Source: Pseudomonas sp. MTM4 (lineage in GTDB: Bacteria > Pseudomonadota > Gammaproteobacteria > Pseudomonadales > Pseudomonadaceae). Taken from it: a stretch of DNA of 64,000 nucleotides. A model generated the notes under the pieces. That model did no database searches. It saw only the letters and a list, made by a program, of their open reading frames with translations, and was not told where the DNA came from. The position numbers and the translations under genes were made by a program. How positions within the stretch are numbered: position 1 is the first letter of the stretch; the number at the start of each line of letters is the position of its first letter. Below, piece by piece: positions 14,518 through 33,900 of this stretch. The stretch spans positions 4,449,001 to 4,513,000 of the forward strand of contig NZ_CP048411.1 in NCBI RefSeq assembly GCF_019355055.1. Reading direction: 5' to 3'.

Positions 14518-14655
14518 TCGTTTGAACCTCCTAAGCGCTCAATTGGCGCGAAGCTTAGCCTTCTTGATCGAGGCCAGCGTTCCGTGCTGATAGCAGTAAG
14601 TGTTAACCCAGCATGTCCTGGATCATACTGAATGCAGCAAGAGGAGCGAGCAACC

Positions 14656-15057
14656 ATGACTGAACTGATCAAGCAGGCCTGCGAGCACTGGCGTTACGTA
14701 GCCCCGTTGCTGAGCAAGCCAACGAACGAGGACGACTATGATGCTCTGGTCGAGGCCTTGGATGAGTTGCTGGGCTTGGTGGGCCATGATGAGAATCACC
14801 CTTTGGCTAGTCTTGCATCACGTGTCGGGGACATGATTGAAGCCTACGACGAGCTTCGTCGGCCGTTGCCGAAAGCAGGCGGGGCAGAGGTGCTGCGTTA
14901 CCTGATGAGGGAGCATGGCCTGCGTCAGGGGGATCTACCAGAGATCGCTACCCAGTCAGTCATTTCCGAGGTGCTTGCTGGTAAACGCCAATTGAACGTG
15001 CGCCACATTCGTGCACTTTCGGATCGTTTCGGTGTTCCTGTGGATGCCTTTTTGTAA
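14656..15057 (+). CDS. HigA-family antitoxin / HTH regulator
   Basis: A 133-residue protein. ATG 14656 is chosen for the GAGGAG upstream; an in-frame ATG at 14632 is the alternative. The N-terminus (VAPLLSKPTNEDDYDALVEALDELL) and C-terminal helix-turn-helix (LRYLMREHGLRQGDL, VISEVLAGKRQLNVRHIRALSDRFGV) match HigA antitoxins of the long type. A HigB toxin gene normally lies directly upstream or downstream; neither side has one (upstream is the divergent 402-residue gene, downstream a convergent mvaT-like gene). It may be an orphan antitoxin, or partner to the divergent unknown. Confidence 0.78.
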   Translation: MTELIKQACEHWRYVAPLLSKPTNEDDYDALVEALDELLGLVGHDENHPLASLASRVGDMIEAYDELRRPLPKAGGAEVLRYLMREHGLRQGDLPEIATQSVISEVLAGKRQLNVRHIRALSDRFGVPVDAFL

Positions 15058-15069
15058 GACTCTCTAAAA

Positions 15070-15094
15070 AGAAAAGGGCCGCGGATGCGACCCT
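15070..15094 (-). terminator. Rho-independent terminator of the mvaT-like gene
   Basis: Read on the minus strand, AGGGTCGC and GCGGCCCT pair (one G-U wobble) around a 4-nt loop and are followed by the T-rich run TTTTCTTTTT. It lies 19 bp beyond the mvaT-like stop codon. Confidence 0.75.
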
Positions 15095-15112
15095 CCCAAG
15101 TAACCTGACCAG

Positions 15113-15439
15113 TTATTGCAGCCAGCTTTCGACCTTGTCGGCACCGTACTCAGCTTTCCAAGCCTTCAGCACCTTATGGTTGCCTCCCTTGGTCTCGACA
15201 ACCTCGCCGGTTTCCGGGTTCTTGTAGCGTTTCAAAGTGCGCTCACGACGTGCGCCTTTCACAGGCGCTTCGGCACTTTTCCCTGCCATCGGATCAAGCA
15301 CGGCGATTACATTACGCAGGGAGTAGCCGTATTCTGCCAAGAGATTGCGCAGCTTGGTTTCAAACTCAATTTCTTTTTGCAGCTTCCCGTCGCTTTCGAG
15401 AGCTTCCAGGCGCTTCTGCTGCTCCGCGATTTGGGCTTG
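15113..15439 (-). pseudogene. 5'-truncated MvaT/MvaU-type (H-NS-like) gene
   Basis: The frame encodes the C-terminal DNA-binding part typical of MvaT family xenogeneic silencers: RTLKRYKNPETGEVVETKGGNHKVLKAWKAEYG, preceded by YSLRNVIAVLDP and the coiled-coil dimerisation stretch LEALESDGKLQKEIEFE. Homology continues up to QAQIAEQQKRLEA, where it is cut by a TAG (15440-15442). The first 10-15 residues and the start codon of a normal MvaT (about 120 residues) are missing. A TTG at 15340 could give a 75-residue DNA-binding fragment without a dimerisation domain. The break coincides with the onset of AT-rich DNA, pointing to an insertion or recombination junction near 15440. MvaT proteins silence foreign DNA. 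Confidence 0.75.
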
Positions 15440-15473
15440 CTAAACCGTCATGAATTTCGATTTGCCAGATTAA

Positions 15474-16817
15474 TTATGGCTTTGATATTGAGGTGTGCCG
15501 ATAGCTAAGAGCGTCCTCCTTCACCAATTCTCCATTTTTTAGTGCCTCATTAAGCATTCTAAGAAGCGAGAATTGCAGTTCATGCCGCAAATCATTGTTA
15601 CAAGGGCACTGCTCCTTGTGGTGGATTTTCTCCCAGCCTTCATCACGTGACTTGTAGTACCACCCTCGATTTAGCCCGACACCCTCGACTACATTTCCAG
15701 GATGCTCTATGACAAGCCCAGAAATAGAAATACTACCATCCCCATCTATAGAAACATGAATGCCCTTTTCGTACTCATAGGGCCGTTGATCCTCTATAAC
15801 CTTGATCAATCCATCTATCTCAATAACAAAGTCACCATGACGCTTGAGCGCTTCATCAACAAGACTTAGGTCAAAACCTTCATTAGTGCTCGCATAGTAA
15901 GAGAACTGTGGAAGCTTATAGAATGTCAGGGACTTAAAAGGACTATCCTCCCCCCCTCTATTCTCGGATACCCAAAAATTTTCAAATAATGTAATCTCAG
16001 GTGGGAGATGCTTTACAAATTTAGTGTCATAGTCAGGTATTTCTAGACCCCTTTTAAATGTAGGGATCGGAGAGTCAATCCGTATCCGCTCCCAAGGTAA
16101 AGCCAGCAGCGCATTCAAAATAAAGTCTTCCTCCTTTTGAGGAAATACATCCGTAACTTTGTCAAGCCCATGCTTCCTGCAATATGACCGTAAAATTTCG
16201 CCAGGCACCTCAATATGAGATATGACGGCCTGAGGTGGCAGCCTATCCTTTAAATTTCCGGCCAAGCATGCTTGTTGTGCTTCAAACCTTAGCCTACCTT
16301 CGCTTCCCCCAAGCAGGGTTAGATCATGCACTTTGACTTCTAGGCTCTCTAATGCCAGCTGATCGATTGTATAAATATGCCCACAACCATCAACTTCGCT
16401 GTATTTGGCCTCCTTATGTACAAGCCACACAGGATCTTCATATAAATCTTCCCCCATATGAATGCACCGACTTTCTTCGTACTGATTCGCAGCAAACCAA
16501 GCGGCAATTTGAGGGGACTTAGTTAAATCGACGTAGAATGATCTCCAGCCATAATGCTGCAAAATAGCCTGCGAGACCTCAAGGCTGATATCAAAGTAAC
16601 CAGACCCTGAAAATGCCCTAATCATTGCCTTCGCATAGTGAGACCACTTAAACATAATGTCAGGCACGCATCCGTGCCGACTAAATGACGTTGGAATATT
16701 CACTAGGCCTGCATCATCAACATAGTGTTTCACTTGTCCGCGAAAAAAATAACCTGCGCTGTATCGAGCAAAGTGCATCTCAAGCGCTTCTAGGTTATCA
16801 ATTTTAGACTCCAGCAT
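15474..16817 (-). CDS. FRG-domain protein, candidate defence gene
   Basis: A 447-residue protein. The N-terminal FRG domain shows YFFRGQVK (residues 23-30), AILQHYGWRSFYVDLTKSPQIAAWFAA (85-110) and the later SHIEVP segment. FRG domains (named for a conserved Phe-Arg-Gly) occur in proteins of unknown activity, often in phage-defence neighbourhoods. The C-terminal half (about 240-447) shows no recognised domain; it ends with a Cys-containing CPCNNDLRHELQF stretch. AGGAG precedes ATG 16817. Base composition is clearly more AT-rich than the flanking core genes, suggesting transfer. It is next to a 238-residue unknown and an RloC-like gene. Confidence 0.75.
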   Translation of the reverse strand: MLESKIDNLEALEMHFARYSAGYFFRGQVKHYVDDAGLVNIPTSFSRHGCVPDIMFKWSHYAKAMIRAFSGSGYFDISLEVSQAILQHYGWRSFYVDLTKSPQIAAWFAANQYEESRCIHMGEDLYEDPVWLVHKEAKYSEVDGCGHIYTIDQLALESLEVKVHDLTLLGGSEGRLRFEAQQACLAGNLKDRLPPQAVISHIEVPGEILRSYCRKHGLDKVTDVFPQKEEDFILNALLALPWERIRIDSPIPTFKRGLEIPDYDTKFVKHLPPEITLFENFWVSENRGGEDSPFKSLTFYKLPQFSYYASTNEGFDLSLVDEALKRHGDFVIEIDGLIKVIEDQRPYEYEKGIHVSIDGDGSISISGLVIEHPGNVVEGVGLNRGWYYKSRDEGWEKIHHKEQCPCNNDLRHELQFSLLRMLNEALKNGELVKEDALSYRHTSISKP

Positions 16818-16930
16818 AATTAAGACGCTCCTGGCTTGGCCTTGAGTAGTTCCAACTGGCGATTATATTTATGTCAATTAATTCCGTGCAAAAATCGGAC
16901 AATGTGGCTTGTAGTTCAGAGCAACCAATT

Positions 16931-17007
16931 TCGGCCAGAAGCAGTCAGTCTGCGACAGGCAGAGTCGCCGCAGAGCTGACGCTCGGTAGCATCAATATCG
17001 TGGTCTG
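16931..17007 (+). repeat. Dispersed repeat, left member of an inverted pair
   Basis: A 77-nt unit starting TCGGCCAGAAGCAGTCAGTC and ending ATCAATATCGTGGTCTG. The reverse complement of 20656-20731 matches it over its whole length at roughly 85% by eye, with one 1-nt gap. The pair thus flanks the 238-residue gene and the RloC-like gene in opposite orientations. The rest of the 295-bp gap between the FRG gene and the next stop codon holds no gene. Confidence 0.7.
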
Positions 17008-17112
17008 TCCCCGATTGTTATGCTTGGTCGAGACAGAAGGTTTCCGATGACCGTATCACACGATCAAACCTCAAGGAGTCCCCCGGCTAAGCCAGGGTAC
17101 TACCTTATTTAT

Positions 17113-17829
17113 TTATGGGGTATAGCGGTGGCTTGTTGTACCTTGATGACCACCACTTGGGAACACACTGCAAAAACAATTGCATGCAGTTGTCCAGAAC
17201 AAATTTCCTGCATCATCTATTGCTTGCACCGCCCGCCATTTTGTTTTTGCGCTATTTCTGAAAGAAATATCTTTCATTTCGACATATCGCACAACATTGG
17301 CACGGTTCTCAGTGTCTGTTTTCTCTAGGAAGGCCGAGTCTTGGTACGGGGCGTGACTCTCGACAAACGTTCCATACAGTAGACATGGCCCCAATAAGTA
17401 TTCGGCTCCAGTTTCATGCAGCACCTGTGCAAGCTCACGCAAAACATCGGGATGCCGTGCTATATCGAAGCTTGGACAAACTAGCAGCGCGGGATCAGAA
17501 AACTCAACAGGCATAAACACGTGGCCAGTTAATTGCCAGCTGTTTGCTACCAGCGCCTGACACTCAGATTTAGGTATTGCTTTGGTTTCAAGAGCAAAAC
17601 CATCAGTATCAAACAACGCGCTCTCATACATTATTTCATCGTCGAGGATGTCATTATGCTTATGCAGCAGGCGAATACCAAGCTCGCCCTGCAATCTATA
17701 CCTTTGAATGACAGATAAGAGCTTTCCTACAGTTTCTTCTTCGCCTAAATCCGCGAGAATCCTAGTAGCCTCGGAAATTGGGTTTAGCGCATTATATGAA
17801 CGTGCATGCGCATAGGTGATTGCATCCAT
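17113..17829 (-). CDS. Hypothetical 238-residue protein
   Basis: Start ATG 17829 follows GGAGAAAG; upstream TTG/ATG starts at 17844 and 17841 are possible. The protein is soluble, with a helical N-terminus (SYNALNPISEATRILADLGEEE), LLVCPSFDIARHPDVLRELAQVL in the middle, and a distinctive C-terminus: KTKWRAVQAIDDAGNLFW, CNCFCSVFPSGGHQGTTSH. The tail has three close Cys residues and a Gly-His-rich end that could bind metal or nucleotide. No family was recognised. It is divergent from the RloC-like gene across a structured 350-bp region and lies within the AT-rich defence block. Confidence 0.55.
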   Translation of the reverse strand: MDAITYAHARSYNALNPISEATRILADLGEEETVGKLLSVIQRYRLQGELGIRLLHKHNDILDDEIMYESALFDTDGFALETKAIPKSECQALVANSWQLTGHVFMPVEFSDPALLVCPSFDIARHPDVLRELAQVLHETGAEYLLGPCLLYGTFVESHAPYQDSAFLEKTDTENRANVVRYVEMKDISFRNSAKTKWRAVQAIDDAGNLFWTTACNCFCSVFPSGGHQGTTSHRYTP

Positions 17830-17983
17830 GGCTTTCTCCATCAATAATTGATCATTGGGAAGGGGCCAACAGCCGCGACGAGACGAACCCCAAATCGGAG
17901 TGTAGCTTGCGTTTTATCGGCTGTTGCCCTGTGGAGATGCCAGCCCGTCTCGATGGTGACATGGCAGTCGCTGACCAGCAGGG

Positions 17984-18050
17984 GGGGGGCATAGCGCAGT
18001 CGCGCCTGTAGGCGTCATAGTAACGAACAGAACGCCTAGCTATACCCCCC
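17984..18050. repeat. Long nested inverted repeat in a divergent intergenic region
   Basis: The outer arms GGGGGGCATAGC (17984-17995) and GCTATACCCCCC (18039-18050) pair over 12 positions with one mismatch. The inner arms TAGGCGT (18009-18015) and ACGCCTA (18032-18038) pair perfectly. The right arms are contiguous; the left side has a 13-nt bulge. This is the main feature of the 350-bp region between two divergent genes, and could be an operator, a structured leader or a small RNA. Confidence 0.55.
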
Positions 18051-18180
18051 GCCATTCATAGATCGTAGCCAGGCAAATCCCTATGTACTACCTTGTAGAC
18101 ACCGGCCAGGGCATAGTCTTATTGCAGTCATCGATGGAGCTCGCCCGTACTCAAACCTGCCTCTGCCTACAGGGAACGTC

Positions 18181-20472
18181 ATGCCAGTCCAAAAAATCGT
18201 TTCAATCAAAAACCACGGAATTCTCAGAAATATCGCAACCCCCAAGATTAATGACTTTGGACGATACAACTTAATCTACGGGTGGAACGGCAGCGGCAAG
18301 TCAACACTATCCAGTCTATTTCGTTCAATTCAGAATCGCTCTCTGAGTAGCGCTTTTCCAGATGCAGAGTTTGCGCTAAAACTAGATAACGGCAGCCAGA
18401 TCACATCTACAAATCTAGCCGCTTCCAATCTCAATATTTATACATTCAATCGTGACTTCATAGAAGAAAACATCAACTGGAACGATGCCGTCAAAAGCAT
18501 CCTTCTAGTTGACAAAGAGAAGATTGTCGAGCGCCAGCAACTCGAAACTCTTCGCGCCCAAAACAAATTGGATGAAGCTAATTATCTCAACGAGCAACAA
18601 GAAATCCAAAAGCTAGAAGCCGCAATTTCGAAATTTGGAACCGACAGTGCTAGACATATAAAAACAAGTCTACAGTCAATTGACACAAGTGATAGTTACT
18701 ACCTGAATTATGATCGTCGCAAATTTGAACGATTCATATCAGAGAATCAAGCTGAAACTCAGGGTGGCCAGCCGATACTTAATGACGACCAGATACTAAA
18801 ACTCATTAAAGCCGCCAAGCCTGATCAAAAAGCACCAATAAACTTCCAGGCAAAGACTATTGGCGGTGAAATATTAGGCAAGGCAAAAACGCGCCTTGAT
18901 GAAATTCTCAAAACGAGCGTTGTGAGTCAAGTAATTACGCGCCTCGCGGAAAATCCAGATATAAAGTCCTGGGTGGAAACCGGATTGGCATTGCATAAAG
19001 GACATTCAGTCGGGAACTGTGAATTTTGTGGAAACAAGATTTCGCCAGAAAGACTTCAGAAACTCGATGCGCATTTCAATGATGAATACAAAACGTTCCA
19101 GTCCAGACTGAAAAGTGCAGAAGCATGGCTCGCAGCTCAATTTATAACTCCCCCACCCCTGCCAGCGGAAACAGAATTTTATGACGAACTCAGGCAACCA
19201 TACATTGATGCATGTGCCGAATTTAGCACAGCCATCGAAACACTAAATATTGAAATTCAAGATTGGCAGAAGGCGCTCAACTCGAAGATTTCAAACCCAC
19301 TTGATACTTCAATCACAATAACAAAAGTAAGCCAGCTAGCCATCAATACGCATAACAATGCTATTCAAAAGATTTCGGATGTGATTTTTCAACACAACCA
19401 CAAATCGCAGAATTTCAAGCAGGAAACCACCAAAGCGAAGAAACAACTAGAACTACACTACACAACAAAGGAAATTACAGTCTTCGACTATCACAACAAA
19501 AAAAATGAAATCACATCTCGAATGAGTACCAACTCGCAGCTGTTGAGCAAAATTAACGCCCGAAGGATCGAAATCAATAAAATAGAAGATTCACTATCCA
19601 ATGAAAGTCTAGGCGCCGATCAATTCAACTTGGCGCTTCATAGATTCTTAGGCCGGACTGAACTATCACTAAGCTTCAATCAAGCGAAAAAAGGTTACGT
19701 GATTCTCCGCAATGAAACGGAGCATGTAAAAGGCAATCTCAGCGAGGGCGAGAAGACCGCCATAGCATTCGTTTATTTCATCACTAAACTCAGCGAAAAT
19801 GACAACGATATCACCCAAACAATAGTCGTTATTGACGACCCAATCTCCAGCTTCGACTCAAACCATTTATTTCATGCATATTCATATCTTCGTGCTAATT
19901 GTGAAAAAGCATCACAACTTTTTGTGTTAACCCATAACTTTACTTTCTTTAAGCTAGTTCGTGATTGGATAGCGCGCCTCAATACCAAGGCAGAAACAAA
20001 TAATTCTAGATTTTACATAGTGCGCGCCAACAACGACACGCCACGATCCTCCACACTAAGTGATGCTGACAAAGCGCTGATTGCATACAACTCAGAGTAT
20101 CACTACATATTTTCCAGGCTAAATGCACTCAAAAAGCAAGAGTCGTTAGAAACCGATGATCATTTTCTTGCTGCCAATCTTTCAAGGAAGCTACTTGAGT
20201 CATTTCTTACATTCAAATTTCCCAAAAACCGCGGGAACTTTGCCAGCCTCTTCAATCATGCAATTGGTACATCAGCCATTCTTGATGCAGACACACAAGA
20301 AAGGATCAGGAAGTTTATTAATCAATACTCTCATAGCGACTTCATTGATACTGATCATAACTTCGCCGAAAATGTCGCTGGCGAAAGTGTTGCAGTTATA
20401 ACCGATGTATTCAGTTGGATTGACGAAATGGATAGCAACCATTTCCAAGAGATGATGGAGTCCATATCCTGA
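18181..20472 (+). CDS. RloC/PrrC-like AAA ATPase with anticodon-nuclease-type C-terminus
   Basis: A 763-residue protein. An N-terminal ABC-type ATPase half-site has Walker A GWNGSGKST (34-42). Long coiled-coil segments flank a Cys-x2-Cys zinc-hook motif, NCEFCGNKIS (C280, C283). The second half-site has the signature LSEGEKTA (520-527) and Walker B VVIDDPISSFDS (about 549-560). The C-terminal part carries RKLLE (R669, E673) and, 45 residues later, H718 in NQYSHSDF, matching the Arg-x3-Glu...His triad of the PrrC/RloC anticodon nuclease. RloC cleaves tRNA and is linked to DNA-damage or phage sensing by a Rad50-like hook. No hsd restriction genes are adjacent. AGGGAA precedes the ATG. AT-rich. 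Confidence 0.82.
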   Translation: MPVQKIVSIKNHGILRNIATPKINDFGRYNLIYGWNGSGKSTLSSLFRSIQNRSLSSAFPDAEFALKLDNGSQITSTNLAASNLNIYTFNRDFIEENINWNDAVKSILLVDKEKIVERQQLETLRAQNKLDEANYLNEQQEIQKLEAAISKFGTDSARHIKTSLQSIDTSDSYYLNYDRRKFERFISENQAETQGGQPILNDDQILKLIKAAKPDQKAPINFQAKTIGGEILGKAKTRLDEILKTSVVSQVITRLAENPDIKSWVETGLALHKGHSVGNCEFCGNKISPERLQKLDAHFNDEYKTFQSRLKSAEAWLAAQFITPPPLPAETEFYDELRQPYIDACAEFSTAIETLNIEIQDWQKALNSKISNPLDTSITITKVSQLAINTHNNAIQKISDVIFQHNHKSQNFKQETTKAKKQLELHYTTKEITVFDYHNKKNEITSRMSTNSQLLSKINARRIEINKIEDSLSNESLGADQFNLALHRFLGRTELSLSFNQAKKGYVILRNETEHVKGNLSEGEKTAIAFVYFITKLSENDNDITQTIVVIDDPISSFDSNHLFHAYSYLRANCEKASQLFVLTHNFTFFKLVRDWIARLNTKAETNNSRFYIVRANNDTPRSSTLSDADKALIAYNSEYHYIFSRLNALKKQESLETDDHFLAANLSRKLLESFLTFKFPKNRGNFASLFNHAIGTSAILDADTQERIRKFINQYSHSDFIDTDHNFAENVAGESVAVITDVFSWIDEMDSNHFQEMMESIS

Positions 20473-20655
20473 GGAGCCTCTGAAGTAGCCATGTATTTCT
20501 GGCTGACTTCAGTCTCCGCTGATTATAAAAGCGCCAATCGTTCAAAACGCTCAGATCAACGCTCATTTCTGTGTTCTTGGCCACCGCGAGCACCTCGCGG
20601 CAGCCTTTTCTCTCATCACGGACGCACCTCTCCTGCATTCGTCAATAAATATCGG

Positions 20656-20731
20656 CAGACCACGATATTGATACTAACGAGCGTCAACTCTGGGTCGACT
20701 CTGCCTGGCGCGACTGTCCGCTTCTGGCCGA
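20656..20731 (-). repeat. Dispersed repeat, right member of the inverted pair (split by an IS)
   Basis: The inverted partner of the unit at 16931. The IS1182-family element begins at its head, duplicating GGCC at 20726-20729. The 20473-20655 stretch between the RloC-like stop and this repeat contains no supported gene. Confidence 0.7.
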
Positions 20732-22335
20732 CTCTGTTGAAAAAGTAGCTGTCACCCCATGCCGTTGGCAAAATTGCTCTGTCAGCGAGCGTGGGGGCAA
20801 ACAGCATGATGGGACAGTTACCGGGAGGACAGCATCGCCTGTTCTACTCGTTCAACCTGGAAGATCACGTCCCAGCCCAGCATCTCCTGCGTAGCATCGA
20901 TCAGTGCCTGGATCTCAGTGATCTGCGCGCCTACCTGGCGGATTTCTATAGCCCCATCGGGCGACCCTCGATTGACCCGGAATTAATGGTGCGCATGCTG
21001 GTCGTTGGCTACTGCTATGGCATCCGTTCCGAGCGGCGATTGTGCGAAGAGGTGCACCTGAACTTGGCCTATCGCTGGTTCTGCCGGTTGGGTCTGGAAG
21101 ACGAAGTACCCAATCACTCCACCTTCTCAAAGAATCGCCATGGACGTTTCCGCGACAGCGATCTGTTCCGCTGGTTGTTCAATGAAGTGCTGCGCCGCTG
21201 CATGGCGATCGGACTGGTCAAAGGCGAAGGCTTCGCTGTGGACGCCAGCATCATCAAGGCCGACGCTAGCCGCCAACGTGGCGTGGCGGGTGATGAGGTC
21301 GATTGGAACGATCCAAAGCTCAGCAGCCGCGCAGTGCGCGAGTACCTCGAAGCCCTTGATGAAGAGGCGCTGGCAGAAACTCTTCCCAAGAAAATTTCGC
21401 TCACCGATCCTCTGTCCCGTTGGACAGCAGCGCCAGGTGGGCCGGCCTTTTTTGCCTACTCCACGAATTACCTGATCGACACTGATCACGGTGTGATCAT
21501 GGACGTGGAAGCTACCCCGGCGCACCGTACCGCCGAAGTCGATTCGACCAGGACGATGGTCGAACGTGTCGAAGCGCAGTTCGATCTCACACCGGAACGC
21601 CTTATCGGCGATACCGCTTATGGCACCGCCCCGATGCTGGCCTGGATGGTCGAAGAAAAGGACATCGAGCCGCATGTGCCGGTGTGGGACAAGACCGAGC
21701 GCAAGGACGACAGCCTCTCCAGTAACGACTTTCACTGGAATCAGGAAGCCAATGAATACCGCTGCCCAGCCGGTAAACCACTACGCAGTGAATGGCGCGC
21801 CTTCACCCATAAAAGATCGCGGGTGACCAAGGCAACACCATCATTTATCGCTCCAGCCAAACCGACTGCGCCACCTGCCCGTTGAAAGCGAAATGCTGTC
21901 CCAACACGCCAAATCGGAAGATCGTCCGCAGCATCCATGAGGCTGCCCGCGACGTGGCTCGACGCATCGCCAAGACACCGGAGTACCTCGTCTCTCGCTG
22001 CGAACGAAAGAAGATGGAGATGCTTTTCGCCCACCTCAAACGGATCATGAAACTCGACCGTTTACGACTGCGTGGCCTGACAGGTGCCACTGACGAATTC
22101 ACTTTGGCGGCGACGGTGCAGAACCTGCGACGCATGGCCAAGCTTTTGCCTCAAGGGCCACCATTAACGGGATAGGTACGCCTGCTGCAAGCAGAAACCC
22201 TCAAATTAACCCCCAAACCTGAGCAAGGACGCTCAGCGAAACGCCGGAAGACAACTTGAAGTGGCTTGCAGCCACTTCGACAGCAGGCACACTTGATCGG
22301 CAGGCTGCCGCTGAAGCTACTTTTTCAACAGAATC
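20730..22335 (+). mobile_element. IS1182-family insertion sequence with GGCC target duplication
   Basis: The terminal inverted repeats are GA(C/T)TCTGTTGAAAAAGTAGCT, at 20730-20750 and, inverted, 22315-22335, with a single mismatch. Flanking GGCC occurs at 20726-20729 and 22336-22339, a 4-bp palindromic target duplication of the kind reported for IS1182-type elements. Total length is 1606 bp. It carries one transposase gene that is frameshifted. It inserted into a dispersed repeat at the 3' end of the IMPase-like gene. Confidence 0.88.
20806..22175 (+). pseudogene. IS1182-family transposase, frameshifted
   Basis: The first frame runs from ATG 20806 (MMGQLPGGQHRLFYSFNLEDHVP) to a stop near 21885. 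It includes PIGRPSIDPELMVRMLVVGYCYG, the catalytic-region AVDASIIKADASRQ and RLIGDTAYGTAPML. The remainder (SSQTDCATCPLKAKCCPN, RCERKKMEMLFAHLKRIMKLDRLRLRGL) continues in another frame to 22175. The break is at ACCAAGGCAACACC (about 21828), where one extra G would restore the reading frame. There is no slippery heptamer, so a single-base deletion (or a sequencing error) is more likely than programmed frameshifting. Confidence 0.82.
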
Positions 22336-23204
22336 GGCCGGGAGCTGACAGAGGCGGCGTCCATCCAAATCGTGGCTAGAAGTGCTGGTGCTGATACTTC
22401 GGGGCGGAGTTGGAGCAAGTTGAGCCATGGACGGGCCAACAGAGTTCGACATGCCTCACTCTGACCGCCAAAGCACTGCTCCACGGGGTAGGTGAATTCA
22501 GCTGATGCGGTATAGCGAATAGGCTTCCCGTCTTGATCGAAGATATCGGCACCTACTGCCTTGAGTAGAGCCTGGCCTGCGACAACGTCATGGGGCGAGA
22601 CGGGGTATAAAGAAACGCCTGCGGCCCCATCACCAGCTGCGACTCGAGCAAGCCGATAGGCGATGCTAGGCATCGGTTCGCAGATTGCGGGGGTGCATAG
22701 GATGTCGTTCTCAGCGCGCTTGGAGGCTGCCGCCGTACTGACAAACACAACCGAACCTTGAAGGACGCGATTCGCACCGCACGGCTCAATGGCTTGGCCG
22801 TTACGAAGGAGCAATCGCATTCCTTGCTGCCAAGCAATGCAGTCTGGCCCACGAGGAGTGGCAGGTGCATATACAACACCAAGCACCGGTTCTCCCTCGT
22901 CCAGAAGCCCAACCGAGACTGCGGAGCCTGGTCGTCTAGCGAGAAAATCTGCAGTTCCATCATTGGGGTCAACAACCCAACAATAGCGATGCCCTGTCTG
23001 ATGGCGCCCGGTCTCTTCCCCTACGAAATCGCAGTTAAGAATCTGTTCAAGACCTCGACGCAGCATGACCTCGATCTCAACATCGACCTCGGCCTTGTAG
23101 CCACTTCCACGCGGCCCACCCGGCCTTTGAAGCTCAGCGAGGATGAAAGCTCCAGCTTCAATCACCAAGTCGGTAACTCGGTAAACAATCCCGGCTTCGA
23201 GCAT
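22317..23204 (-). CDS. Inositol-monophosphatase-superfamily (CysQ-like) phosphatase, IS-modified C-terminus
   Basis: A 295-residue protein with the Li+-sensitive phosphatase motifs: GEETGRH (metal-binding Glu pair), WVVDPNDGTADF (DP-x-DGT) and the C-terminal SPHDVVAGQALLKAVGADIFD (family W-D-AAG). Relatives hydrolyse inositol monophosphate or 3'-phosphoadenosine 5'-phosphate. The IS1182 element entered at codons for the last few residues: the terminal ILLKK and the stop come from the IS end, while the catalytic core is intact. Without the IS the frame would run on to TAG 20674-20676 in the adjacent repeat. The start overlaps the stop of the upstream zinc-ribbon gene (TAATG), so the two are translationally coupled. 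Substrate unknown. Confidence 0.8.
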   Translation of the reverse strand: MLEAGIVYRVTDLVIEAGAFILAELQRPGGPRGSGYKAEVDVEIEVMLRRGLEQILNCDFVGEETGRHQTGHRYCWVVDPNDGTADFLARRPGSAVSVGLLDEGEPVLGVVYAPATPRGPDCIAWQQGMRLLLRNGQAIEPCGANRVLQGSVVFVSTAAASKRAENDILCTPAICEPMPSIAYRLARVAAGDGAAGVSLYPVSPHDVVAGQALLKAVGADIFDQDGKPIRYTASAEFTYPVEQCFGGQSEACRTLLARPWLNLLQLRPEVSAPALLATIWMDAASVSSRPILLKK

Positions 23205-26060: not shown

Positions 26061-28169
26061 TTAGAAGAACTCCAATTCAAGCAGGGTGTTCAAGTCGTCA
26101 GCAGATTCATCGTCAGGCTCAACGGCGTTGACTATACGTACCGCCTGAGCAAGCCCAGTCTTGGACTGAGAGTGCTCAGGAGGGGGAAGTGTGATGAGCG
26201 TGCCATCCGGGGTATCAGGGTCTGTCAGGAGCTCCAGGACAAGCCTCCAGCGTTGCAGGCGGCCTTCGTTGTGCTTGATCCAGCGGGATGCCCCAGGCTC
26301 CCCGTTCGCCAAGGCTTGCAGGGCCATCTGGAGGGCTTTCTCATGGATCTCCGTCTGGTATCTCGCCTCAGCCAGATGCTTCGGTTCCCCTTTCACCACG
26401 GCATGTTCTCCGCACATGGTGCAGTCCTTGTCCTTCGGGCAAGGCGTCAGCGCGTAGTCGTGTCGGCAGATGCCGTACCGGGTGCTATGGATGGCTCCCA
26501 GTTCGATCTTGAGGGCCTGGCTCTGCGTTAGGCCGTTGTTCTCGGCCATGGCCCTAGCTTTATCTGCGATGGGCCCTTGCACGCTCAATTCAGGAGCGTT
26601 ATCGCCGAGCTTGGTGTAGGCCTCAATGAAGGCTTCCTGTGGCAGATGGTCGTACCAGGCGTTCTGGGTGATGTGCTTGCGTCCAGACCAGAAGGCAATC
26701 AGGGATTCCGACAGGTGCTTGGACTGGGCCAGGGTGTTCAGCAGGTGTCTGAACTGGTGCGTCGTGATGGCGATAGGGCTGCCATCCTTGTGCGTCATGC
26801 CATTGCGCGAGAACACGGTTACCCCGGCTGGGTTGGCTCCCAGCTGGTTGTTCAGCATGTTGGTGGTAATGGTTGAGGGCACGTTCATGAAGGCCTCTAC
26901 ATTTGGCCTTAGTGCGTGCTCAGGAATCAGGAACAGCGCCTCATGCCACATCAGACCTGACTCCCCATCCAGAATTGGGAACGTGGCTGGCAGCTTCGTC
27001 AGAACAGTTTTCTCCAAGGAGTCCCAGCTAAACAGGGAGGTGCCACGAGTGCCGCTCAGCTCATCCACGCGCTCAGGATCATGGGTTTTCTGGCCCAATG
27101 GCTCTAGGCCAACCCTTCTGGCATGGCCGCTCTGGATAGTGGTTTGCCGGCCTAGGATAAGGCTCGCCTCCCGCAGCGTAAGCGGCTGGCCTCGCAGGTG
27201 TTCAAGGCCAGGAGGCAGGTAAAGCTGGCCGGGGTTTTCCGCATACCACTTCGCTGCTACGCGGGCACTTGCACCCAGTTCAGTGAAGAACTTCACAGCC
27301 GCTCTGGCGATATCTTCCGAAGCATCCGAAGTAGAGAACTTGGTCATTGGAGAGCCGCCTTTTGCGGGCCTCCATGATATCCCCATCATCTCTCCGTCAT
27401 TGCCCTGCGCAGATGTAATGCAATCGACGGGAAGTGTCAGTATTTCTGATACCCGGCTAGGTGCAAACATTGCCAGCGAAACAAACCCTGTGACGATGTT
27501 GTCAGGCAGGCTTTTAGATTCATGGTGGATTTTTGCCAAGTCCAGAATCGACTGAATGTTAGGGAGTTTAGAGGTGTTCTCCTCTCGCATGGTCGGATCA
27601 AGTCGATCATTTCGTGTTGGTTGCTGGTATTGGATCGACGACTTCCAAGAGAGGTTATGGTTAACCAGTCTTGCCGGAATGATGATGTCATTGACAATGC
27701 GCTCTAGGCACCTACCAACCGTCCACGCATCCTTAAAGCGATCCCGGAGAAGATTCGACGCTTCATCCAATATGTTGGCGTTTACCCTCGTTACGCATGG
27801 TTCCAAATTGGCATCAAGCAAAGCTTGCTCGATGGCTTGCAGGGCATAAAGAAAACGCCTGTATTCTTGAAGCTTAAAGCGCCTCATGATTTCGCTAAAG
27901 GTGGATTTGGCGAACTCAAGGAACGGCATATCAAAGGGTGTCTCGACCTTGGATTTGTTGCCCGACTCATCCCTTAGCGATTTGAAGTGGGCGATCTTCT
28001 TAGTCCGACCCTGGTTGCGCCCAATCAGAAAGGTCGAGATATCCCAGCTATTATCCGCCCAAACAATGTTTACAAACGGACAGTTATCTATCGCATGGCG
28101 ATTGAAGTCGCTCAAGTTCTGATTGGCTGTAAGGTCGGCCTTGCCAGAAAAATAAATCAACTCACCCAT
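26061..28169 (-). CDS. Large tyrosine recombinase (TnpB/GmtZ-like)
   Basis: About 702 residues from ATG 28169, which overlaps the end of the upstream recombinase gene by 8 nt; ATG 28181 is an alternative. The catalytic domain shows box I APSRVSEILTLPVDCI (Arg) and box II HQFRHLLNTLAQ (H-x2-R), then GRKHITQNAWYDHL with the probable nucleophile Tyr. A Cys-rich C-terminal segment (CRHDYALTPCPKDKDCTMCGEH) follows, a probable metal-binding motif. Size and gene position resemble TnpB of Tn554 (630 residues). It would act with the two smaller recombinases in integration and excision. Confidence 0.78.
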   Translation of the reverse strand: MGELIYFSGKADLTANQNLSDFNRHAIDNCPFVNIVWADNSWDISTFLIGRNQGRTKKIAHFKSLRDESGNKSKVETPFDMPFLEFAKSTFSEIMRRFKLQEYRRFLYALQAIEQALLDANLEPCVTRVNANILDEASNLLRDRFKDAWTVGRCLERIVNDIIIPARLVNHNLSWKSSIQYQQPTRNDRLDPTMREENTSKLPNIQSILDLAKIHHESKSLPDNIVTGFVSLAMFAPSRVSEILTLPVDCITSAQGNDGEMMGISWRPAKGGSPMTKFSTSDASEDIARAAVKFFTELGASARVAAKWYAENPGQLYLPPGLEHLRGQPLTLREASLILGRQTTIQSGHARRVGLEPLGQKTHDPERVDELSGTRGTSLFSWDSLEKTVLTKLPATFPILDGESGLMWHEALFLIPEHALRPNVEAFMNVPSTITTNMLNNQLGANPAGVTVFSRNGMTHKDGSPIAITTHQFRHLLNTLAQSKHLSESLIAFWSGRKHITQNAWYDHLPQEAFIEAYTKLGDNAPELSVQGPIADKARAMAENNGLTQSQALKIELGAIHSTRYGICRHDYALTPCPKDKDCTMCGEHAVVKGEPKHLAEARYQTEIHEKALQMALQALANGEPGASRWIKHNEGRLQRWRLVLELLTDPDTPDGTLITLPPPEHSQSKTGLAQAVRIVNAVEPDDESADDLNTLLELEFF

Positions 28170-29622
28170 TGTTATTGTCATCCGTCGTGGAGCGCTTTGA
28201 ATCGCGGGCGATAATGATTTCGTTAATGGCCGACATAGCGTTGTGGTTGATCTCGCGAATCCGATCATCCTTTTCCATGTCTTGATCGGCCTTCAGCGAG
28301 GCCATCAGTGTCTCCCATGGGGCGTCGATCAGGGGCTCAAAGTGATGGCAGTACAGGCACGCAATGGGCGCATTTTGATGACACTCAGCGCGGGTGCCGC
28401 AAGCGCCCACTGTCTGGCCCGTAAGTCGCAGGAAGTCAGCAATGACTGAGGTATCGTCACCAGCTCGCGTCGACTCGTCGAGGGATGTGATGAGGCGCCC
28501 CTGGAAGGCCCTTGCAAAGAACTCCATCTCCTTCCCAATAGCCTCGCGGATGGGGTTCTGGAGCTGAGGCATGGAGGCGCGGTAGAACTGGATGCAGCTT
28601 GTGCTCCTGTGCGTCAGGAGCCTTGCCACTTCAAAGTCGGATGCGCCATGGGCTAAGGCTCGTGTAGCTAGGGTGTACCGGAAGCGGTAAGGGGTGATAG
28701 GGACTCTTTGCTCCAGTCGATTTGAATAGGTATTCAATCGGCTCAGTGTTTTAATTAGTCGCTTGCCAATAGCGTCTGGCGCGCCATCAAAGAGCTTCGA
28801 TTCGTTGGATTCATCGTTTTTGCTCTCTAGGTAGTTGATTAAGCACTCAGCCAGAACGGTAGGGGCGCGTCTCAGCCAGTATTCTGTTTTGCCACCGCCT
28901 TCACCTTTGGCAAGAGGGATGCGCAAAGTAACCTCTTTGCCCTCGGCTCCTTCAGAAATCTGCACATCAGATCTGACCATGCGCGAAACTTGCACAGGAC
29001 GAACGCCAGTGCCTATAAAGAACCAGGCAAGAGTATATTCTTCCTGGTTTACTGTGCCCTGAGAGTACGCGTAGTTTAGCTCGCCATGAATGCTGCTCAG
29101 CTCTTGATCGGTTAAGGCACCGCTTACAGGGTCGTTTGTGATGAGTGTGAAATAGGCGCCATTATTTTTTTCTTCCCACTTGTGGTTGTTGTTTAGGAAG
29201 TCAATAACCTCTGGTGACATCCCATTCAGGCGCTGATCTTTAATTCGTCGCAGTGTCGGAACGATAAAGGCAATGTAGGTGGGTATCTTTGATATTAGGC
29301 TGACATGTCTAAGCTGAATGATCCATTCCTGCCCGCAATCCTCTGTCGAGAGCCAATGCAGAAGTGCAACCGTAATAGTAGAGTTGTATTTCAGGCTGTG
29401 CGTTGAAAGAGTTCCGCACATCACCTTGAACAATGAATGATGAAAGGGATTGCCTTCATAAAGAATCTCGAAGTGCAGAAGCACTGGGACGCCATCGCTG
29501 TTGTGTATGCGAAACGATTCACCCATCTTTACAGTAACTACCCTGCCATCCAGTAAAACCAGCGTGTTTTCTGTGGGGGCTGCGGCTTCACTTCGTTGAG
29601 CTAGCAGTTCGTTATTCATCAT
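28162..29622 (-). CDS. Tyrosine recombinase, middle gene of the trio
   Basis: A 486-residue protein with box I GTGVRPVQVSRMVRSDV (Arg), box II YRFRYTLATRALAHG (Tyr in place of the usual His) and LLTHRSTSCIQFYRAS with the candidate nucleophile Tyr. The C-terminal part has CGTRAECHQNAPIACLYCHHFEPL, a Cys/His cluster also present in the large recombinase. Its start overlaps the upstream integrase stop by 11 nt, and its end overlaps the next recombinase by 8 nt, so the three are coupled. The altered box II may make it a specialised or accessory partner. Confidence 0.78.
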   Translation of the reverse strand: MMNNELLAQRSEAAAPTENTLVLLDGRVVTVKMGESFRIHNSDGVPVLLHFEILYEGNPFHHSLFKVMCGTLSTHSLKYNSTITVALLHWLSTEDCGQEWIIQLRHVSLISKIPTYIAFIVPTLRRIKDQRLNGMSPEVIDFLNNNHKWEEKNNGAYFTLITNDPVSGALTDQELSSIHGELNYAYSQGTVNQEEYTLAWFFIGTGVRPVQVSRMVRSDVQISEGAEGKEVTLRIPLAKGEGGGKTEYWLRRAPTVLAECLINYLESKNDESNESKLFDGAPDAIGKRLIKTLSRLNTYSNRLEQRVPITPYRFRYTLATRALAHGASDFEVARLLTHRSTSCIQFYRASMPQLQNPIREAIGKEMEFFARAFQGRLITSLDESTRAGDDTSVIADFLRLTGQTVGACGTRAECHQNAPIACLYCHHFEPLIDAPWETLMASLKADQDMEKDDRIREINHNAMSAINEIIIARDSKRSTTDDNNNG

Positions 29623-30865
29623 CTTTCTTTTTGCCTGCCGCTATTTCGTTGGCTAGTTCTTCTGCAATTTGGTCAGATTTCACTCTGATGGTTCTGCGAG
29701 AGTAGCGAGCACTCATCTGAGAGTCTTTCTTCCACCCCATCAGGCGGTTCCTTACCTGCTCCTCTTCGTTCTTGGATATGCGCTTCTCAGGCGGGGCCTT
29801 ATCAACCTTTGTGCTGAACCTGTCATTCCATGTCCGTCTTAGCGCGTGCGGTGCAAAGTCTTCAGGCAGCTCGTGGGCCTTCTTCCTGGCCGTCCTGAAG
29901 ATGAGATTGATCGTGTCCGCGCAGATGTGGCGCCCCTCTGCGGTGGTAAAGAGGTAGCCGTGGGCCCGCTGCCTGGCAGGGATTTTCGACCAGTGCTGAA
30001 GGACGAAATGGTGAAAGGCGAGCGCAGTCGCACTGGAGATTGGAACGGTGCGGGCTTGGGTCTTAGAGACTCGAATGCGCACGCGCTTGTTGGCGTAGTT
30101 GACGTCTTCGACCTTCACGAAGCGCAGTTCACTTCGGCGCATGCCGTTGTCGGACAGCATCCGGTACACCAGGTGGTTACGGTGCTTGATGAAGTCTGTG
30201 CTGAATGGGTTGATCTCGGCGGAAGGGTCGAATATCTCGTCTGCGAACGCCATCGTGACCTCATCCATGCCCTCCAGTGCGTCGCTCTCATCCGCATTGC
30301 CGACGCTGGGAATCAGCGCCTTCAGTCGGCGTATGGAGGGGTGTACAGCCTCATCCTTCGCTGTGCCTGGAGCTGGGCGTGGCAGGCCTTGCTCAACCTT
30401 TTCCAGCTGATACTCAAGGAAGGCTGCAACGATACGGATTCGATAGGCACCTTCCTCGGCAGAGCAAGCAGTGCGCTCTGAGGCTTTCTGATGGAACCCA
30501 CCACGCACCTGCTCAAGCCGAACAACCCGCGATGGTAACTCTTCCATACTCAAGGCCAGCTCGCGGTCTTGCGATGGTCTGTCCAGGCGAAGGAAGAAGG
30601 CCAGATCCTCGCACTGCTCAATGGATAGGAAGGCTTCTGAGCTGATGGCTGCATGCAGATCAAGCTTTCTGGCGGAGGCCCACAGATAGGCCATGCCAAG
30701 CGTTCTGAGCGCTTTCTTGATCGTTGCTGAAGAAGAACCGTTATCGCGGTAATGGAACGTCGCATAGACGTTGGGGAGGAAGAGGGGGCTGCCTTGGTCA
30801 TCAACCAAGACAGCCATCTCTACTCCATCCGAAGCAGTGAATGAACGAATGGAGAAGGCTTGCAA
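29612..30865 (-). CDS. Tyrosine recombinase, first gene of the trio
   Basis: A 417-residue protein starting at TTG 30865 with AGGAAA well placed upstream; the next in-frame ATG is at 30817. Catalytic features are box I RRSELRFVKVEDVNY (Arg), box II FAPHALRRTWNDRF (H-x2-R) and QMSARYSRRTIR with the nucleophile Tyr. An N-terminal SAM-like core-binding region precedes this (DLAFFLRLDRPSQDRELALSME). It is the promoter-proximal gene of the four-gene recombination operon. Direct and inverted repeats in the adjacent 140 bp could be its binding and crossover sites. Confidence 0.82.
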   Translation of the reverse strand: MQAFSIRSFTASDGVEMAVLVDDQGSPLFLPNVYATFHYRDNGSSSATIKKALRTLGMAYLWASARKLDLHAAISSEAFLSIEQCEDLAFFLRLDRPSQDRELALSMEELPSRVVRLEQVRGGFHQKASERTACSAEEGAYRIRIVAAFLEYQLEKVEQGLPRPAPGTAKDEAVHPSIRRLKALIPSVGNADESDALEGMDEVTMAFADEIFDPSAEINPFSTDFIKHRNHLVYRMLSDNGMRRSELRFVKVEDVNYANKRVRIRVSKTQARTVPISSATALAFHHFVLQHWSKIPARQRAHGYLFTTAEGRHICADTINLIFRTARKKAHELPEDFAPHALRRTWNDRFSTKVDKAPPEKRISKNEEEQVRNRLMGWKKDSQMSARYSRRTIRVKSDQIAEELANEIAAGKKKDDE

Positions 30866-30993: not shown

Positions 30994-31008
30994 ACATAAG
31001 TATCGGTG

Positions 31009-33900
31009 TCACTGGCAGGCTTCGCAGTCGGGCTCATCGATCGCACACGCCTTTGGGACCGGTGCCGGGCCGGCGGACATTTCTGGGGCTGGCGCGGCTT
31101 TCGCCGGTGCGGCGCTGTTGCCGCTATTGCCACCGCTGGACACGGCGTTGAGCTTGCCGGTGTTGACGGTGGACTTCTCGGTGCTGGTCGCGGCCAGGGC
31201 ACGGAGGTAGTAGGTGGTTTTCAGGCCACGGTACCAGGCCATGCGGTAGGTCACGTCCAGCTTCTTGCCCGAGGCGCCGGCGATGTAGAGGTTCAGCGAC
31301 TGGGCCTGGTCGATCCACTTCTGGCGGCGGCTGGCGGCGTCGACGATCCACTTGGTTTCCACTTCGAAGGCGGTCGCGTAGAGGTCTTTCAACTCCTGCG
31401 GGATGCGCTCGATCTGCTGCACCGAACCGTCGTAGTACTTGAGGTCGTTGATCATGACCGCGTCCCACAGGCCGCGTGCCTTGAGGTCGCGAACCAGGTA
31501 GGGGTTGATCACGGTGAATTCGCCCGAGAGGTTCGATTTCACGTACAGGTTCTGGTAGGTCGGCTCGATGGACTGCGATACGCCGGTGATGTTGGCGATG
31601 GTCGCGGTCGGTGCGATGGCCATGATGTTGGAGTTACGGATGCCGTTCTTGACGCGGGCGCGAACTGGAGCCCAGTCCAGGGACTCGGTCAGGTCGACGT
31701 CGATGTACTTCTGGCCACGCGCTTCGATGAGGATCTGCTGCGAGTCCAGCGGCAGGATGCCCTGGCTCCACAGCGAACCCTGGAAGGTTTCGTAGGCGCC
31801 GCGCTCGTCGGCCAGGTCGCAGGAGGCCTGGATGGCGTAGTAGCTGACCGCTTCCATGGACTTGTCGGCGAAGTCGATGGCGGCATCGGAACCGTAGGGG
31901 ATGTGCTGCAGGTACAGCGCGTCCTGGAAGCCCATGATGCCCAGGCCCACCGGGCGGTGCTTGAAGTTGGAGTTCTTCGCCTGCGGAACCGAGTAGTAGT
32001 TGATGTCGATGACGTTATCGAGCATCCGCACGGCGGTGCGCACGGTGCGCTCCAGCTTGGCGGTGTCGAGCTTGCCGTCGACGATGTGGCGCGGCAGGTT
32101 GATCGAGCCCAGGTTGCAGACGGCGATCTCGTCCTTGTTGGTATTCAGCGTGATCTCGGTGCAGAGGTTGGAGCTGTGCACCACGCCGACGTGCTGCTGC
32201 GGGCTACGCAGGTTGCACGGGTCCTTGAAGGTCAGCCATGGGTGGCCGGTTTCGAACAGCATGGACAGCATCTTGCGCCACAGGTCTTTGGCCTGCAGGG
32301 TTTTGTAGTTCTTGATCTTGCCGTATTCGATCAGGGCTTCGTAGTACTCGTAGCGCTCCTCGAAGGCCTTGCCGGTGAGGTCGTGCAGATCGGGTACTTC
32401 GCTTGGCGAGAACAGGGTCCACTTGCCGTCGTCGAAGACGCGCTTCATGAACAGGTCCGGAATCCAGTTGGCGGTGTTCATGTCGTGGGTACGGCGACGG
32501 TCGTCACCGGTGTTCTTGCGCAGCTCGAGGAATTCCTCGATGTCCAGGTGCCAGGTTTCCAGGTAGGCGCAGACCGCGCCCTTGCGCTTGCCGCCCTGGT
32601 TGACCGCAACGGCTGTGTCGTTGACTACCTTCAGGAAGGGCACGACGCCCTGGGATTTACCGTTGGTGCCCTTGATGTAGGCGCCCAGTGCGCGCACTGG
32701 CGTCCAGTCGTTGCCCAGGCCGCCGGCGAATTTGGAGAGCAGGGCGTTATCGCGGATGGCGTCGTAGATGCCGCCCAGGTCGTCCGGCACGGTGGTCAGG
32801 TAGCAGGAGGACAGCTGCGGACGCAGGGTGCCGGCGTTGAACAGGGTCGGCGTGGAGGCCATGTAGTCGAAGGATGACAGCAGGTTGTAGAACTCGATGG
32901 CGCGGGCTTCGCGCTGTTCTTCCTCGATGGCCAGGCCCATGGCGACGCGCATGAAGAAGATCTGCGGCAGTTCGAAACGCACGCCATCCTTGTGGATGAA
33001 GTAGCGGTCATAAAGGGTCTGCAGGCCGAGGTAGGTGAACTGCTGGTCCTGCTCGTGGTTGATCGCGGCGCCCAGCTTGGCCAGGTCGTATTCCTTCAGG
33101 CGCGGGTCGAGCAGTTCGAACTCGACGCCCTTTTCCACGTAGGCGGGCAGGGCCTTGGCGTAGAGGTCGGCCATTTCGTGGTGCGTGGCGGACTCGGCGA
33201 CTTCCAGGAAGCTCAGGGCCTCGGCGCGCAGGGTATCCATCAGCAGGCGAGCAGTGACATAGGAGTAGTTCGGCTCACGCTCGACCAGGGTACGGGCGGT
33301 CATCACCAGGGCGGTGTTGACGTCGGTCTGCTCAACGCCGTCGTAGAGGTTCTTCAGGGTTTCTTTCTGGATCAGCGCGCCATCGACTTCTTCGAGGCCT
33401 TCGCAGGCTTCGGTGATGATGGTGTTCAGGCGTCCCAGGTCCAGCGGCGCCATGCTGCCGTCGGCACGCTTGATGCGGATGCTCGGGTGGGCTTCGACCG
33501 GGGCGTCGACCGCGCCGCGCTTGCGCTCCTGGCTGCGGGATTCGCGATAGATGACGTAGTCGCGGGCGACTTTCTGCTCGCCGGAACGCATCAGGGCCAG
33601 TTCGACCTGATCCTGGATTTCTTCGATATGGATGGTTCCACCGGAGGGCATGCGGCGCTTGAAGGTAGCGGTGACCTGTTCGGTCAGGCGCTGCACGGTG
33701 TCGTGGATGCGCGACGAGGCGGAGGCATTGTTGCCTTCCACTGCGAGAAACGCCTTGGTGATGGCGACGGTGATTTTGTCATCGGTGTAGGGGACGACTG
33801 TACCGTTGCGCTTGATCACGCGCAGCTGGCCCGGCGCGGTGGCGGCCAGGTCCAGCGTGCTGTCGGCGTGTGGGTTCTCGCGAATGGACTCGTTCTGCAT
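31009..33900 (-). CDS. nrdA: Ribonucleotide reductase class Ia, alpha subunit
   Basis: A 963-residue protein, the size known for Pseudomonas NrdA, which has two N-terminal ATP-cones: VIKRNGTVVPYTDDKITVAI (about 28-47) and IRIKRADGSMAPLDLGRL (about 140-157). Catalytic landmarks are SCYLTTVPDD (substrate-site Cys), NLCTEITLN (Asn-Cys-Glu, with the thiyl-radical Cys) and VCNLGSINL (second substrate-site Cys). The C-terminus ends DEPDCEACQ, the Cys pair that passes reducing power from thioredoxin. It makes dNDPs with NrdB. nrdB, next to nrdA in P. aeruginosa, is not in the window; the recombinase operon occupies its expected place. The upstream region carries NrdR and DnaA boxes. Confidence 0.96.
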   Translation of the reverse strand: MQNESIRENPHADSTLDLAATAPGQLRVIKRNGTVVPYTDDKITVAITKAFLAVEGNNASASSRIHDTVQRLTEQVTATFKRRMPSGGTIHIEEIQDQVELALMRSGEQKVARDYVIYRESRSQERKRGAVDAPVEAHPSIRIKRADGSMAPLDLGRLNTIITEACEGLEEVDGALIQKETLKNLYDGVEQTDVNTALVMTARTLVEREPNYSYVTARLLMDTLRAEALSFLEVAESATHHEMADLYAKALPAYVEKGVEFELLDPRLKEYDLAKLGAAINHEQDQQFTYLGLQTLYDRYFIHKDGVRFELPQIFFMRVAMGLAIEEEQREARAIEFYNLLSSFDYMASTPTLFNAGTLRPQLSSCYLTTVPDDLGGIYDAIRDNALLSKFAGGLGNDWTPVRALGAYIKGTNGKSQGVVPFLKVVNDTAVAVNQGGKRKGAVCAYLETWHLDIEEFLELRKNTGDDRRRTHDMNTANWIPDLFMKRVFDDGKWTLFSPSEVPDLHDLTGKAFEERYEYYEALIEYGKIKNYKTLQAKDLWRKMLSMLFETGHPWLTFKDPCNLRSPQQHVGVVHSSNLCTEITLNTNKDEIAVCNLGSINLPRHIVDGKLDTAKLERTVRTAVRMLDNVIDINYYSVPQAKNSNFKHRPVGLGIMGFQDALYLQHIPYGSDAAIDFADKSMEAVSYYAIQASCDLADERGAYETFQGSLWSQGILPLDSQQILIEARGQKYIDVDLTESLDWAPVRARVKNGIRNSNIMAIAPTATIANITGVSQSIEPTYQNLYVKSNLSGEFTVINPYLVRDLKARGLWDAVMINDLKYYDGSVQQIERIPQELKDLYATAFEVETKWIVDAASRRQKWIDQAQSLNLYIAGASGKKLDVTYRMAWYRGLKTTYYLRALAATSTEKSTVNTGKLNAVSSGGNSGNSAAPAKAAPAPEMSAGPAPVPKACAIDEPDCEACQ

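Follow-up and report, generated by a model that had tools for sequence, protein, structure and literature searches.

RloC proteins have been defined as proteins of 658–897 residues that combine the motifs of an ATP-binding cassette (ABC) ATPase with a CxxC zinc-hook insert and an Arg-x3-Glu-x36–52-His triad (PMC2610378). In the same survey, 8 of 73 RloC genes were linked to type I or type III restriction-modification (R-M) genes and 10 of 73 lay within possible transposons. A survey of HEPN domains describes RloC as normally being kept inactive by its own ATPase domain, and its table lists the PrrC/RloC/APECO1_4465 class as often occurring in R-M operons (PMC3710099). RloC is switched on by inducers of DNA breaks even in an R-M-deficient host, and the A. 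baylyi protein targets tRNA-Glu and tRNA-Gln (PMC3874168). Here we describe an RloC-type gene and its two neighbours, which encode an FRG-domain protein and a 238-residue protein, in a 64,000-nucleotide stretch of the Pseudomonas sp. MTM4 genome (NZ_CP048411.1, positions 4,449,001 to 4,513,000; hereafter the window, in whose numbering all coordinates are given unless stated otherwise). A sequence-only reading of the window had proposed that these genes make up a defence block and possibly a new combination. In the reading that we consider likely, mobile, defence-type cargo has accumulated here by separate acquisitions in an island of about 35 kb at nrdA, with rloC standing alone and the FRG and 238-residue genes as unrelated cargo.

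By its sequence, the 763-residue product of the gene at 18181..20472 (+ strand) is RloC-like and of an already known type, a predicted ABC-ATPase/HEPN anticodon nuclease of PADLOC class PDC-S06: it matches the hidden Markov model (HMM) of that class (PDLC04894) over its full length (residues 1–760, E 3.4e-181) and Pfam AAA_13 (PF13166) over residues 13–745 (E 1.1e-159). The frame is unbroken from ATG to stop; the preceding in-frame stop is at 18037, and no in-frame ATG, GTG or TTG lies between it and the ATG. The motifs are all in place, as the sequence-only reading had recognized for all but the switch histidine: the ABC ATPase head is present, with its Walker A (GWNGSGKST, 34–42), signature (LSEGEK, 520–525), Walker B (D552-D553) and switch histidine (H585), together with the hook cysteines (C280-x2-C283) and the triad (R669-x3-E673-x44-H718), and both the x44 spacing and the length fall within the published ranges (PMC2610378). 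We aligned it with 17 relatives whose genes are intact, three of them from plasmids, 13 from viral contigs and one from a genome. C280, C283, E524, D552, D553, H585, R669, E673, S717 and H718 are identical in all 18 sequences, which are not independent of one another (L010, L091 and L092 are nearly one gene, with the same motifs and neighbours); conservation of the R-E-H residues, which that reading had left to be checked, is thereby confirmed. G37, S38, S41, L520, E522 and K525 are variable, Walker A and the signature being retained with minor changes, such as MSDGE instead of LSEGE in L100. Three of the 20 RloC loci were omitted from this count: L076 and L098, in which the gene is split, and L102, which is cut by the end of its contig.

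Relatives of this protein occur on plasmids and in viral contigs. It matches 254 plasmid records, of which 130 cover at least 80% of the query (neighbourhoods were read in three of the 254), and relatives were found in 15 viral contigs, the neighbours on mobile DNA being varied. Phage portal genes adjoin RloC in L095 and L096, the latter also containing a terminase gene, a position at which P2-like phages may carry cargo. In all five loci checked, rloC is AT-richer than the surrounding DNA.

The sequence-only reading also held that RloC usually accompanies restriction systems. Neither the published proportion (8 of 73; PMC2610378) nor our own set, in which a single locus of 20 (L101) lies among R-M genes, agrees with this: R-M linkage holds for a subset of RloC, and a stand-alone RloC is therefore plausible without a partner, which corrects the premise that such a copy is unusual. 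HSDR_N, which marks the type I R subunit, gave no match in the MTM4 genome in a search that was positive in nine of 14 control genomes; no type I R subunit was therefore found that might act in trans. Judged from its sequence, the stand-alone RloC is probably functional, our confidence in its activity being lower than that in the reading as a whole.

That rloC lies in a decaying locus, and that the protein fell silent or became non-functional after an insertion sequence (IS) arrived, is improbable, even though it accounts for some of what is seen. An IS1182-type element (ISCfr1-like; 20734..22331, + strand), identified by plasmid matches, by Pfam for the longer of the two open reading frames (ORFs; 364 and 97 residues) as which its transposase is read, and by its inverted ends, begins about 260 bp past the rloC stop; it is 94% identical to annotated plasmid copies of ISCfr1. 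In addition, RloC relatives are split in two in L076, in L098 and in the P. aeruginosa plasmid NZ_CP124659.1, where the gene is broken around an annotated IS1380-type element. Against this stand the intact frame of rloC, from ATG to stop, and the presence of the motif residues.

The three AT-rich genes are clustered as had been described (G+C content of 0.44 for the FRG gene, 0.46 for the 238-residue gene and 0.41 for rloC, versus 0.63 in window 31009–64000), with gaps of about 300 and 350 bp between them and with rloC divergent from the other two. Profile searches were run over the ORFs of 103 loci, with flanks of none to about 9 kb per side. No relative of the 238-residue protein was found in 51 FRG loci (48 from genomes and three of five plasmid records; L007, a weak hit with short flanks, was excluded), neither of the other genes was found in the 20 RloC loci, and neither FRG nor RloC was found, within the DNA compared, in the two loci of the 238-residue family. 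Thus, besides the window, all three genes were together in none of the 51 FRG, 20 RloC or two 238-residue-family loci, and the suggested new three-gene combination is not upheld. Moreover, no neighbour family was common to more than four of 49 FRG loci, with up to four ORFs considered on each side.

The island that holds these genes extends from window −4323 to 31008, about 35.3 kb, and its insertion point appears to be the 3′ end of nrdA (31009..33900, − strand; assigned by Pfam), which forms its chromosomal border. The nrdA-side junction was matched in 54 of 56 same-genus genomes, MTM4 itself counted. We base the insertion on two observations: (i) similarity in the nrdA region begins at window 31007–31013 in 51 of the 53 other matching genomes (for four of the 51, this start was read through a second short piece); and (ii) the DNA downstream of nrdA in genome G117 corresponds to MTM4 positions 4442846–4444677. 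At the nrdA end of the island lie three long ORFs of 735, 486 and 417 residues (26061..30865, − strand), at least one of which is of the tyrosine-recombinase type by Pfam: PF00589 matches the 417-residue ORF (E 6.9e-16) and, below the cut-off, the 486-residue ORF (E 2.4e-4), and does not match the 735-residue ORF. A 136-residue ORF also lies at this end. The whole arrangement may resemble that of Tn554-like elements. No phage structural genes were recognized among the island ORFs scanned with Pfam.

How the genes of this block act, what sets them off and whether they stop phages we infer, in the case of RloC along the lines of the published model. RloC would be held silent by its own zinc-hook, Rad50-like ATPase; DNA breaks arising from infection or damage would switch this ATPase, and the C-terminal HEPN domain, with R669, E673 and H718, would then cut the anticodon loops of tRNAs and remove the wobble base. 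Translation would stop and the phage would be unable to multiply, so that the outcome would be abortive infection. The FRG protein would be the product of a separate gene, a predicted effector that has an ADP-ribosyltransferase (ART) fold and uses NAD+, and the 238-residue gene would be a phage-type accessory gene.

The FRG-domain protein (447 residues; 15474..16817, − strand) belongs to a mobile family and is a predicted enzyme of the ART superfamily. Its FRG domain (PF08867, residues 23–116) scores 28.3 bits against a Pfam cut-off of 25, and its match to PADLOC PDC-S15 is weak (best E 8.2e-5). Relatives were found in the 48 genome loci by an alignment search and in the five plasmid records by a protein search; the roughly ten closest are 48–66% identical and come mostly from marine or halophilic Proteobacteria, with one from Campylobacterales and one from a Phycisphaerales bin. 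Across the 42 rows of the FRG alignment, 42 columns are invariant, including R26-G27-Q28, H88-Y89-G90 and E123. The alignment excludes four loci whose excerpt has an in-frame stop (L027, L053, L056 and L057), two that match over a short length (L013 and L055) and two that fall short of the E 1e-20 cut (L060 and L061), and its 42-row version also excludes L011 and L012. The protein thus shares with described FRG domains the FRGQ motif and a score above the cut-off, and differs in its length of 447 residues and in a conserved C-terminal half beyond the Pfam domain, where E333, K351-G352, C404 and C406 (C404-x-C406) and H412 are invariant. This architecture of an FRG domain plus a C-terminal half with C-x-C and H residues, seen over 48 genome loci, is offered for further study.

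An AlphaFold2 (AF2) model of the FRG protein is of good quality, with a mean predicted local distance difference test (pLDDT) score of 89.4. Foldseek found no match to it in the PDB at E ≤ 0.001; among the matches listed, the highest probability (0.54; TMt 0.35, E 1.1) was that of the tRNA phosphotransferase Tpt1, an enzyme of the KptA/ART type. Nor was there a match among viral models at E ≤ 0.001, the best row being an uncharacterized phage protein (E 8.9e-3, probability 0.99, TMt 0.34). KptA is a member of the ART superfamily, and in the same source FRG is assigned to this superfamily, a role as an NADase is suggested as possible, and FRG proteins are discussed as immunity effectors (PMC9503650). 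The placing of FRG proteins in phage-defence settings by the sequence-only reading finds support there. As a separate observation, the FRG relative on a Rhizobium plasmid (L011:7507–9284) lies 11 bp after an annotated RES-family NAD+ phosphorylase gene and also adjoins an ABC-three-component system.

The 238-residue protein (17113..17829, stop included, − strand) belongs to a family of which few members are sampled and which is marked by LLHxH...E, NSxKTxW and C-x3-C...GGHxG motifs. Its ORF may be read as 238 residues from an ATG at 17829 or as 243 residues from a TTG (17113–17844). Nothing was found for it in Pfam (even at E ≤ 10), NCBIfam, PADLOC or PHROGs, and single-sequence searches gave no significant match except to itself; against viral and genome contigs, single sequences found nothing whereas alignment-based searches gave matches. 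A relaxed plasmid search returned five records at E ≤ 10, the best being a Rhizobium plasmid (L086; E 0.7, 28% identity), whose protein shares the LLHxH and NSxKTxW motifs and a C...C...GxGHxG tail. A pattern search built from this pair identified one viral contig, L088, with a full-length relative 58% identical; this contig is temperate-phage-like, holding integrase and S24-type repressor genes, and the relative's gene has a G+C content of 0.52 versus 0.60 for its 14.9 kb. Identical in the three-row alignment are H56, H58, E65, N192-S193, K195-T196 and W198 and, in the tail, C216, C220, G226-G227-H228, G230 and H234. The Cys-rich, GGHQG-containing tail to which the sequence-only reading had drawn attention is conserved, and the protein does fall outside the families of those four databases, but it is not an orphan, having phage-borne (L088) and plasmid-borne (L086) relatives.

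Four other weak plasmid matches to the 238-residue protein (one from P. fluorescens) and 15 more to the L086 query (best 6e-4, over a short stretch), all at E ≤ 10, suggest that more distant relatives may exist; the L086 query found none in 398 phylum-level genomes and also missed the MTM4 copy, which makes this empty result uninformative. An AF2 model from the one sequence (mean pLDDT 42.9) was useless. With so few members, no function can be named for this minor, uncharacterized phage-borne family, which we add as a subject for study; the gene product may be a small accessory protein of the phage type that could have a metal site. We also considered that the ORF might be an artefact, cut off by a relic with which the stop codon of the window copy overlaps. 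This relic (17023..17115, + strand) derives from one end of an IS200/IS605-family element, carries no tnpA and is 81–92% identical to the DNA directly preceding IS200-type tnpA. Truncation was mostly rejected, because the phage copy extends only four residues further and has the same tail. In Acidovorax (L072) the same 93 bp immediately precede an annotated tnpA; in Azotobacter and genome G209 (loci L071 and L078) the tnpA copies that follow them are broken.

An imperfect inverted repeat of about 91 bp (left arm 16931..17021, + strand; right arm 20645..20731, − strand; 85% identity over 91 columns in inverse orientation) encloses the 238-residue gene and rloC, and leaves the FRG gene outside. 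No further copy was detected in the MTM4 genome at E ≤ 0.001, and of 55 other same-genus genomes five match parts of the repeat, a sixth (G209) matching only the IS200-type stretch. Among the ORFs around the copies in four related-genome stretches, none stood out as a transposase for the repeat except an IS1182 relic in genome G203, where a repeat copy lies about 160 bp from the remains of an IS1182 transposase (94% over 35 residues), an arrangement found at L073:8119–8472. This proximity parallels that in the window, where the IS1182-type element starts at 20734, two bases past the right arm.

The repeat could be taken to frame a two-gene unit, moved by its arms, in which the 238-residue protein, a member of an undescribed phage-borne family with a possibly metal-binding tail, would tune the zinc-responsive RloC, controlling or complementing the nuclease. 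The two genes are indeed divergent neighbours within one frame, the arms of which are the only copies found in the genome, and the C-x3-C...GGHxG tail is conserved. We nevertheless regard this as quite unlikely: the 58% identical relative in L088 has no RloC in 14.9 kb, all 20 RloC loci are without the 238-residue family, and the repeat was not seen to be accompanied by a transposase of its own, whereas its partial copies are dispersed in five of 55 other same-genus genomes, and it may thus be an ordinary interspersed repeat.

Our preference for a stack of separately acquired cargo must be set against several observations that weigh against it. RloC-class genes from other clades, whose products have the CxxC and the triad, are present in two of the 48 FRG genome loci: one lies at about 2.2 kb from FRG in L046 (Pseudoxanthomonas) and one at about 0.2 kb in L051 (Roseibium), where it is the nearest long ORF upstream of FRG and on the same strand; L027 and L056 have weak RloC-class hits only (24 and 27.5 bits). 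At least 20 AAA_13 genes above 100 bits were found in 299 phylum-level genomes, MTM4 excluded, a rate that is a lower bound as three candidates per genome were scored. If genomes are assumed to average 4 Mb, a rough estimate puts the chance expectation for the FRG loci, 0.70 Mb in all, at about 0.01 such loci, or at 0.03 if the roughly 50 matches above the cut-off are used. The two loci observed exceed this. The sharing of islands by FRG and RloC-class genes thus seems to be commoner than chance would give, as is the case for defence genes, but does not amount to a fixed unit. In a Shewanella plasmid (L008), a TIR gene (8964–9659; PADLOC ThsB, E 2e-122) directly follows an RloC gene whose product is 60% identical to ours. 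L101 (6096–15572) has a 31% identical RloC between Methylase_S (HsdS-type) and HSDR (HsdR-type) genes, the order being Methylase_S, a DSPc-domain gene, RloC, the HSDR gene overlapping the end of RloC, and then a GmrSD-type gene. Distant partners would be missed, because the flanks compared reach at most about 9 kb per side, and with only two confirmed relatives the associations of the 238-residue family are poorly sampled. Finally, in one correlative study of Pseudomonas strains, RloC was correlated with susceptibility to phages, not with resistance, which its authors read as failed protection or suicide (PMC12447246). A Streptococcus thermophilus study lists RloC as untested there (PMC12322248), and we met no phage-plating test of RloC in the papers considered, which is no proof that none is published.

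A single three-component system, with RloC as sensor-effector, FRG as a second, NAD+-consuming effector and the 238-residue protein as regulator, would fit the adjacency of the three genes in one AT-rich stretch and the pairings in L051 and L046, and is very improbable. No second locus was found in which the 238-residue family accompanies FRG or RloC, and the 20 RloC loci contain no FRG; rloC is divergent, gaps of about 300 and 350 bp separate the genes, the IS200-end relic lies between FRG and its two neighbours, and FRG is outside the inverted repeat. We retain the reading of separate cargo, and take this locus as a case in which guilt by association misleads: three genes that resemble a block seem to have had independent histories.

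The remaining surroundings of the block are as follows. The truncated mvaT-like gene and the neighbouring IS that had been described on either side of it were both recovered, the latter being the IS1182-type element and the former a relic without its 5′ end (15113..15439, − strand): frame translation gives an MvaT-like C-terminal part, with a stop immediately before it and no start codon at its head. The name MvaT is a presumptive assignment. An ORF resembling a helix-turn-helix antitoxin lies at 14632–15057 (PADLOC PD-Lambda-2_B, E 3.2e-14), with no toxin partner recognized adjoining it, and ChrB and chromate transporter genes lie at 10354–12655, within the inferred island. An inositol-monophosphatase-like gene (22317–23204) runs at its 3′ end into the IS1182 copy. 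Rfam gave nothing at E ≤ 0.1 in window 14000–23000.

Among known systems, the closest are the RloC proteins of G. kaustophilus and A. baylyi (Davidov & Kaufmann 2008; Klaiman 2013), with which the window protein, likened to them by published description, shares the ABC ATPase motifs, the CxxC hook, the triad and the length; as with those copies, no R-M genes were recognized alongside. From candidate class PDC-S06, which it matches over the full length of the HMM, no difference was seen. PrrC has the ABC and triad motifs in common with it, and the window protein gives a weak match to the PrrC HMM (E 6.6e-9); however, PrrC proteins are described as having 341–416 residues, no hook insert and a place in type Ic R-M loci (PMC2610378), whereas the window protein has 763 residues and its genome gives no HSDR_N match. 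Finally, phage morons offer a parallel: in viral contigs, the RloC and 238-residue relatives have portal, terminase, integrase or repressor genes as neighbours, and in the loci checked they exceed their flanking DNA in AT content. The present locus differs in that the window genes lie in a chromosomal island whose Pfam-scanned ORFs include no recognized phage structural gene.

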